A stretch of DNA of 64,000 nt from Marinitoga sp. 38H-ov (GTDB taxonomy: Bacteria; Thermotogota; Thermotogae; Petrotogales; Petrotogaceae), in NCBI RefSeq assembly GCF_011057715.1, contig NZ_LNGH01000016.1, forward strand, positions 62,001 through 126,000, in the 5' to 3' direction. Below, one piece after another: positions 11,565 to 37,374 of the stretch; position 1 is the stretch's first letter, and each line of letters starts with the position of its first letter. The notes below the pieces were generated by a model. It did not search any database. It saw only the letters and a program-made list of their open reading frames with translations, and was not told the DNA's origin. The translations under genes were made by a program, and so were the position numbers.

Positions 11565-11587
11565 ATCCCGGAGAAAATCCCCGGGAT
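11565..11587 (-). terminator. Terminator downstream of rpsB
   Basis: The stem ATCCCGG/CCGGGAT has a nine-base loop and is followed on the minus strand by TTTTATTAA. It ends the rpsB transcript ahead of miaB; some read-through into miaB is likely because no clear miaB promoter is seen. Confidence 0.8.
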
Positions 11588-11600
11588 AAAATTTATTTAA

Positions 11601-12404
11601 TTATTCTTCATCTTCTTCAATAATTTCTCCGTATTTTTCTTCAGCCTCCACTTTAGCTTTTGTAACTTCTTCTACATCATCTACAACTTCTTCTTTTTCT
11701 TCAGGAGTTTCTTCTCCCATTCTTCCTTCTCTTCCTTCAATATATGCATCAGCAATCTTAGATGCAATTAATTTTATTGCTCTTATAGCATCATCATTTC
11801 CAGGAATTACAATATCAATTGGATCTGGATCACAGTTTGTATCAACTAAAGCAATAATTGGAATACCTAACATATTTGCTTCAGCTATAGCTATTTGTTC
11901 TTTTCTAGGATCAACTAAGAAAATAAAATCTGGAATTCTTTTCATACCCCTTAAACCACCAAGGTTTTTATTTAATTTATCGTATACTTTCTTGATTTTA
12001 CTTTGTTCCTTTTTAGGTAATTTTTCAAATTCTTCAGAATTTACATATTCATCTAATTCTTCTAATTTTTTAATTCTTTTCTTGATAGTTGGGAAGTTTG
12101 TTAATAATCCACCTAACCACCTGTTGTTTACATAATATGCTCCTGCTCTTTTTGCTTCCTCCTCTGTTATTTGTTGTGCTTGTTTTTTTGTCCCAACAAA
12201 TAATAACACTTTACCTTGTGAAGCTTGATCTCTTACAAATTCATATGCTTCTTCTACTGCTTTTAATGATTTTTGTAAATCAATAATATAAATACCTTTT
12301 CTTTCTGTGAAAATGTATGGTTTCATTTTAGGGTTCCATCTTCTTGTTCTGTGACCAAAGTGAACCCCAGCTTCTAAAAGTTGTTTCATGCTAATAACTG
12401 ACAT
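11601..12404 (-). CDS. rpsB: Small ribosomal subunit protein S2
   Basis: The protein has 267 residues. The start [19 protein letters not shown] is the classic S2 N-terminus, and [23 protein letters not shown] and IVIPGNDDA match the family. An acidic tail follows residue 235 or so. An in-frame ATG at 12441-12443 would add 13 residues that no S2 has; the ATG at 12402-12404 sits 7 bases after TTGGAGGTG and is chosen. Between rsfS and this start lies a structured RNA element (12449-12488). Unlike many bacteria, tsf does not follow rpsB here; it is 24 kb away with pyrH. Confidence 0.97.
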
Positions 12405-12429
12405 ACTACTACACCTCCAAGTTTTGGTT

Positions 12430-12495
12430 TTTACCTCCACCATCTTACGTTTCCGACCCTGCGGGCACCGAGGAAACTACTAACGGTGTGTGAGG
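12430..12495 (-). promoter_or_regulatory. Candidate S2 autoregulatory mRNA leader with pseudoknot
   Basis: On the minus strand two helices interlock. CACCG (12488-12484) can pair with CGGTG (12470-12466), and GTTTCC (12477-12472) with GGAAAC (12454-12449); CCC/GGG (12465-12463, 12459-12457) can form a small inner stem. The upstream ACCUC segment could alternatively pair with the GAGGU of either Shine-Dalgarno site. Its place directly before rpsB and its unusually high GC for the genome suggest a ribosomal-protein leader. Binding by S2 is inference from location. Confidence 0.5.
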
Positions 12496-12852
12496 TTATA
12501 TTTTAATTTCTTCTGCTTCATTCCATAATCCTTCTAAATCATAAAATTCTCTTGCTTTCTCTGTAAACAAATGAACAATTATACTTCCACCATCAACGAT
12601 TAACCATTCATATCCTTTATCTTTATCATAATATAATAAATCATGATTTTTTTCTTTGAACTTTTCAACAACAGATTCCTTTAAAGCATTTAAATGTGTA
12701 TCTGAATTACCTGTAGCTATTATAAAATAATCAACTAGTAGTGGTGTATTTTTCATGTTAAGAACTTTAATATCTATTGCATCTTTTTCATCTAATACAT
12801 TATATATCTCTTTAGCTATTTCAAAAATTTCCTCTTCTGATTTTAACTTCAC
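12496..12852 (-). CDS. rsfS: Ribosome silencing factor RsfS
   Basis: The protein has 118 residues, the usual size for RsfS (formerly iojap/YbeB). It binds L14 on the large subunit and blocks subunit joining when nutrients are scarce. Family marks are DAIDIKVL near residue 25, DYFIIATGNSDTHLNAL in the middle, and WLIVDGGSIIVHLF near the end. The gene lies 15 bases downstream of glmS and directly upstream of the structured rpsB leader, with no terminator in between, so rpsB may be partly transcribed through it. Confidence 0.95.
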   Translation of the reverse strand: MKLKSEEEIFEIAKEIYNVLDEKDAIDIKVLNMKNTPLLVDYFIIATGNSDTHLNALKESVVEKFKEKNHDLLYYDKDKGYEWLIVDGGSIIVHLFTEKAREFYDLEGLWNEAEEIKI

Positions 12853-36774: not shown

Positions 36775-37374
36775 ATGAATATTTCTGCTGCAGATGTAAA
36801 AAAATTAAGAGATGCTACCGGTGCTGGAATGATGGATTGTAAAAAAGCTTTAATTGAAGCTGAAGGTGATTTTGATAAAGCTGTTGATATCTTAAGAATA
36901 AAAGGAGCTGCAAAAGCTGCAAAAAAAGCTGGAAGAGGTACTGGTGAAGGTATAGTATATTCTTATATTCACCATAATGAAAGAGTTGGAGTTTTATTAG
37001 AATTAAATTGTGAAACAGATTTTGTTGCTAGAACTGAAGATTTCCATGAATTAGCAAAACAAATTTCATTACAAATTGCAGCTATGAAACCAAGATGGGT
37101 TAAAAGAGAAGATGTTCCAGAAGAAGTTATTGCAAAAGAAAAAGAAATATATACAGAAGAAATGAAAGAATCTGGAAAACCTGCACATATTGTTGAAAAA
37201 ATTGTAGAAAATAAATTAAATAAATTCTTTGAAGATAATTGTTTATTAGAGCAAGAATTCGTATTTGCTGATGAAAAGGGTACAAAAATACAAGATCTTA
37301 TTACATCTGCTATTGCTAAAATAGGAGAAAATATACAAGTTTCAAGATTTGCAAGATTTGAAATTGGTGAATAA
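36775..37374 (+). CDS. tsf: Translation elongation factor Ts
   Basis: EF-Ts is the nucleotide exchange factor of EF-Tu. It has 199 residues, a short single-core form common in thermophiles. The start [26 protein letters not shown] with the TDFV-like segment [13 protein letters not shown] is diagnostic, and a further helical dimerisation region follows. tsf is here with pyrH and eno rather than with rpsB. A strong terminator sits between tsf and pyrH. The start is ATG after AGGAGGG. Confidence 0.97.

Follow-up and report, generated by a model that had tools for sequence, protein, structure and literature searches.

The rsfS-rpsB gap of Marinitoga sp. 38H-ov carries a Thermotogota form of the S2 (rpsB) leader with a short predicted pseudoknot beside the Shine-Dalgarno site

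What lies in the short gap between rsfS and rpsB of Marinitoga sp. 38H-ov, and could it act on the S2 gene that follows? Within the window, that is the whole stretch of 64,000 nucleotides analysed here (contig NZ_LNGH01000016.1, positions 62,001 to 126,000), a preliminary description had marked this gap as a candidate S2 autoregulatory leader with two interlocking helices, CACCG with CGGTG and GTTTCC with GGAAAC. The GC content is indeed far above that of the flanks, as had been claimed, with 0.53 in the segment 12440-12499 as compared to 0.20-0.40 on both sides, and the stop codon of rsfS (12498-12496) abuts the leader (Table 1). An ATG at 12443 lies inside the leader and an ORF caller could start rpsB there, which would give a protein of 280 amino acids; the true start is probably the ATG at 12404. 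We consider it highly probable that the gap holds an S2 (rpsB) leader of the known kind in its Thermotogota form, in which excess S2 would stabilise a pseudoknot and block ribosome loading.

Table 1. Coordinates of the leader, its parts and the neighbouring features in the window
Feature	Position	Strand	Remarks
rsfS (ribosome silencing factor), upstream gene	12496..12852	-	ORF; name from the preliminary description
S2 leader element	12494-12424	-	gap between rsfS and rpsB
ACCUC	12492..12496	-	able to pair with either GAGGU; genus-level, outside the conserved core
P1	12438..12488	-	CACCGUU 12488-12482 with GAUGGUG 12444-12438; 7 pairs, two G-U
P2	12449..12477	-	GUUUCC 12477-12472 with GGAAAC 12454-12449; second helix of the preliminary description
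P3 hairpin	12456..12466	-	GCCC 12466-12463, loop GCA, GGGU 12459-12456; minimum-energy fold and pair counts
Predicted pseudoknot, 5' strand GGU	12467..12469	-	between P2 and P3
Predicted pseudoknot, 3' strand ACC	12426..12428	-	after P1, in conserved AAACCAAA
Upstream GGAGGU	12433..12438	-	first G closes P1; counterpart of GUGGAGG in the t44 consensus
rpsB Shine-Dalgarno GGAGGU	12413..12418	-	7 bases after ACC; sequence and spacing in relatives
rpsB (ribosomal protein S2)	11601..12404	-	267 amino acids from ATG 12404, MSVISMKQ...
Terminator-like stem-loop 3' of rpsB	11565..11587	-	consensus match only

The element belongs to a class that has already been described, a point on which the preliminary description could not decide, namely t44 (RF00127) or the rpsB motif (PMC2704228). 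The Rfam search that had been proposed finds t44 at 12428-12510 on the minus strand over the full length of the consensus (1-95), with an E-value of 0.0015 and a score of 26.5 bits that lies below the curated gathering threshold of 44 bits, and we file the element under the S2 leader class rather than as a curated Rfam t44 member. Homology to t44 is nevertheless supported by the E-value, the full-length match and the reciprocal search. Across Thermotogota, t44 matches at rpsB in 34 of 103 genomes and in the T. maritima control, scoring above the curated cut-off in a single one of the 103. DNA upstream of rpsB was gathered from 95 Thermotogota genomes, and a first covariance model seeded with seven leaders, six from the genus itself and one from another family, matches 93 of these regions and also recovers the leader of E. 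coli, a sequence outside its seed (E 2.2e-5). The refined model R2, built on Thermotogota leaders, places the element at rpsB in 91 of the 103 genomes, essentially once per genome; several of its misses are explained by seven assemblies that gave no rpsB match at all. A wider set comprised 80 rpsB loci, of which 78 carry the label of a lineage outside Thermotogota, and here R2 matches 61 loci at E<=1 and 59 at E<=0.01, always just upstream of rpsB. All in all the leader is nearly universal in Thermotogota, where the Rfam cut-off mostly misses it. Its place before rpsB in nearly the whole phylum and its homology to t44 and the rpsB motif give the proposal of an S2 autoregulatory leader good support.

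In the window itself, R2 has one significant match (12424-12494, 68.9 bits) and none at the tsf locus. Since tsf (36775-37374) lies on the opposite strand, 24 kb from rpsB, and is not matched by R2, the leader belongs with rpsB. In a related genus, two genomes (loci L178 and L182) retain rpsB and, on the minus strand, the leader's 3' half (CCGGAGGTAAACCAAAACGGAGG), the 5' half being replaced by different sequence; they may have lost or modified the control by S2. A second, weak R2 match away from rpsB (G085:C1:201922-201959, E 0.019) is probably due to chance.

How well founded is the fold? The minimum-energy fold of the single sequence yields P1, P2 and P3. By energy the 59-nt core stands out only mildly (z -2.1), and it is conservation, not fold energy, that puts the element far beyond chance. 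A MAFFT-only alignment misregistered P2 through bulges, and a covariance model was used instead. In the alignments behind the pair counts (A3 and A4), whose fitting to P1-P3 inflates these counts, 96.5% of the P1-P3 pair cells of 92 distinct Thermotogota leaders are standard and 14 of 16 pairs change on both sides, while in the wider set 94.4% are paired and all 16 pairs have changed on both sides. Covariation in the 92 leaders amounts to 0.766 as compared to 0.213 with shuffled partners and to at most 0.15 with slid partners; in the wider set it is 0.862, against 0.211 after shuffling. P1 is paired to 97% over the 92 leaders, with compensatory changes at five of its six modelled pairs and, in the wider set, at all six, and an alignment made from sequence only recovers P1, compensations included, as well as P3. 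In P2 all six pairs change on both sides, in Thermotogota as in the wider set, and GTTTCC/GGAAAC is thus a real helix by the covariation yardstick that had been fixed beforehand. The leader hence contains three nested helices backed by abundant compensatory changes. Could it still be a chance GC-rich spacer, or coding sequence of an rpsB that starts at ATG 12443? The open frame from 12443 and the modest z-score would allow for this, but covariation, with pair compensation across the 92 leaders, and the essentially single R2 match per genome contradict it; moreover, the S2 matches of relatives begin at the second start codon, and leader lengths of close relatives differ by non-multiples of three. 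We regard the chance of either as negligible.

The other helix of the preliminary description did not stand. Its strands CACCG (12488-12484) and CGGTG (12470-12466) are both present on the minus strand and can pair in principle, but they are paired in 75.1% of cases as compared to 75.6% with shuffled partners in the same alignment, and one of the five pairs changes on both sides, as in the shuffles. CGGUG is nearly fixed, whereas changes in CACCG are matched by changes in the 3' strand of P1, as is seen within the genus from CAUCG/CGAUG and GCCG/CGGC (L115 and L113); within P1, the partner with which CACCG pairs and co-varies is the GGUG that sits at the first GGAGG, not CGGTG. We reject this helix. 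What holds of the two interlocking helices is P2 and the existence of a pseudoknot, and the pairing scheme has to be corrected: CACCG is a part of P1, and the true pseudoknot, as far as comparison of sequences tells, pairs GGU with ACC, a strand that falls just outside the coordinates given before.

Of the 93 aligned Thermotogota leaders, 91 are not gapped at the GGU position and every one of these carries GGU; ACC is fixed in all 93. Since the three pairs are invariant in Thermotogota, the covariation of GGU/ACC rests on other phyla, and there compensation is clear. In a swap test on the wider set without its Thermotogota, 57 distinct leaders in all, the summed length of the pseudoknot stems is 202 as compared to 162 +/- 4.8 with swapped partners, a value reached in 0 of 2000 swaps; for the 18 leaders that lack GGU it is 66 as compared to 48 +/- 3.3, with again 0 of 2000 as high. 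Compensated pairs of strands are CUUGU/ACAAG (L035), CUCGU/ACGAG (L076) and CAAAGG/CCUUUG (L088), and in E. coli GGGGU, judged by eye, faces ACCCC. The distance from the 3' strand to the Shine-Dalgarno is 3-15 nt in Thermotogota and 7 nt in the leader studied here; in other lineages the 3' strand lies within 3 nt of an SD-like site or overlaps it in 40 of 57 leaders. Overlap is seen in five leaders from other lineages (L035, L076, L040, L045 and L088), for example by ACGAG in ACGAGGAGG, and is apparently a case of direct sequestration. A further observation concerns the bases directly before the conserved GGU, which are CUC in 51 of 90 Thermotogota leaders (12473-12467 in the window, and relatives); with the preceding base this gives CCUC, which could pair with the Shine-Dalgarno site.

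Masking of GAGGU by ACCUC, another suggestion of the preliminary description, fared unevenly. The upstream GGAGGU is probably not the rpsB ribosome site. When the 98-nt leader is folded for minimum energy, ACCUC pairs with GAGGU, and six of the seven leaders of the genus, for which masking is possible, have ACCUC or CCUCC upstream; in other genera such segments are sporadic, and outside the genus we reject an anti-SD switch as a conserved feature. Could the same leader nonetheless work as such a switch, with ACCUC/GAGGU in one state and a CACCG/CGGTG pseudoknot in the other? The fold and the six leaders just mentioned would fit, but the ACCUC pairing is missing from most other genera, and CACCG/CGGTG shows no compensation and competes with the strongly supported P1, so that we hold this to be very improbable. 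ACCUC/GAGGU may be local tuning at most, not the conserved mechanism.

But how would S2 act on its own leader? One of the contacts of S2 on the ribosome is helix 26 of 16S rRNA; for a resemblance to this helix the 16S stretch of the organism was inspected, and nothing testable was seen. The homology to known leaders, the three helices, the cross-phylum pseudoknot and its short distance from the Shine-Dalgarno, all observed in this analysis, are the frame for the following model. The RNA would fold into P1-P2-P3, with GGU pairing with ACC downstream of P1, beside the rpsB Shine-Dalgarno. Once more S2 is made than 30S assembly takes up, the free protein, perhaps together with S1 as in E. coli, would bind and stabilise the pseudoknotted fold; the closed pseudoknot beside the Shine-Dalgarno would then keep 30S from loading, and translation of rpsB would drop. 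By analogy to E. coli, S2 probably lowers its own production through this leader: the roles of S2 as the repressor and presumptive ligand, and of S1 as a helper, are taken over from work on that organism (PMC10931766), whereas blocking through closeness to the ribosome site is suggested by the spacing between the pseudoknot 3' strand and the Shine-Dalgarno. The leader might instead bind another factor, such as S1 alone or an assembly factor, or enhance ribosome loading, and not be a repressor site for S2. Pseudoknots are among the RNAs that S1 can bind, in E. coli S1 is required together with S2 (PMC10931766), and an rpsA-like gene, with a score below the family cut-off, is present here; however, the element accompanies rpsB throughout the phylum and its homologue in E. 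coli does respond to S2 (PMC10931766), and we think it unlikely that S2 is not the repressor.

With this, a control element of ribosomal-protein synthesis already known from other lineages is traced through nearly the whole of a deep-branching phylum in which the Rfam model misses it. The short pseudoknot beside the Shine-Dalgarno offers a simple idea for self-repression by S2, the mechanism of which is called unclear for E. coli (PMC10931766). More speculatively, and as a view that we do not yet favour over its opposite, the S2 leader might be an ancient, near pan-bacterial element whose pseudoknot closes on or beside the rpsB Shine-Dalgarno, so that S2 would occlude the ribosome site directly in most phyla; E. 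coli, with its longer gap, would then be the exception on which the unclear mechanism was studied.

How does the leader compare with the systems that have been described? The rpsB motif reported in 2009 (Meyer et al., PMC2704228) includes a pseudoknot, and the text of that paper names Proteobacteria, Cyanobacteria and some Firmicutes and notes a three-pair pseudoknot for Firmicutes. The leader likewise lies in the 5' region of rpsB, has a long P1 that ends in a junction bearing short, variable further stems, whose helices here carry compensations, and pairs a junction strand with the 3' extension after P1, GGU/ACC being invariant in Thermotogota and compensating across phyla. Measured against that text, the long P1 of PMC2704228 probably corresponds to P1 plus P2 here and its P3 to our P3; its P2 would then probably be missing here, as is reported there for several groups. 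Different from that account, the pseudoknot here is a fixed GGU/ACC, and Thermotogota, absent from that text, are an addition to the taxonomic range it gives. The Rfam family t44 stands for the element that precedes rpsB in E. coli, where it is annotated as tff. It aligns with the leader end to end, in CACAC..., in GGUGCC-hairpin-GGUCGG and in GUGGAGG, and the search is reciprocal on the E. coli leader; it differs in that our score stays below its gathering threshold, in that Rfam shows its structure without a pseudoknot and types it as an sRNA and not as a leader, and in its pseudoknot strands, GGGGU/ACCCC, which by eye are longer. Finally, S2 is reviewed as a translational repressor of the E. 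coli rpsB-tsf operon that requires S1 (PMC10931766, 2024), and according to the review the operator there does not include the ribosome binding site, which counts against explanations by blocking of the Shine-Dalgarno. With this operator the leader shares its anatomy and the first gene, but it differs in that tsf is not adjacent to rpsB.
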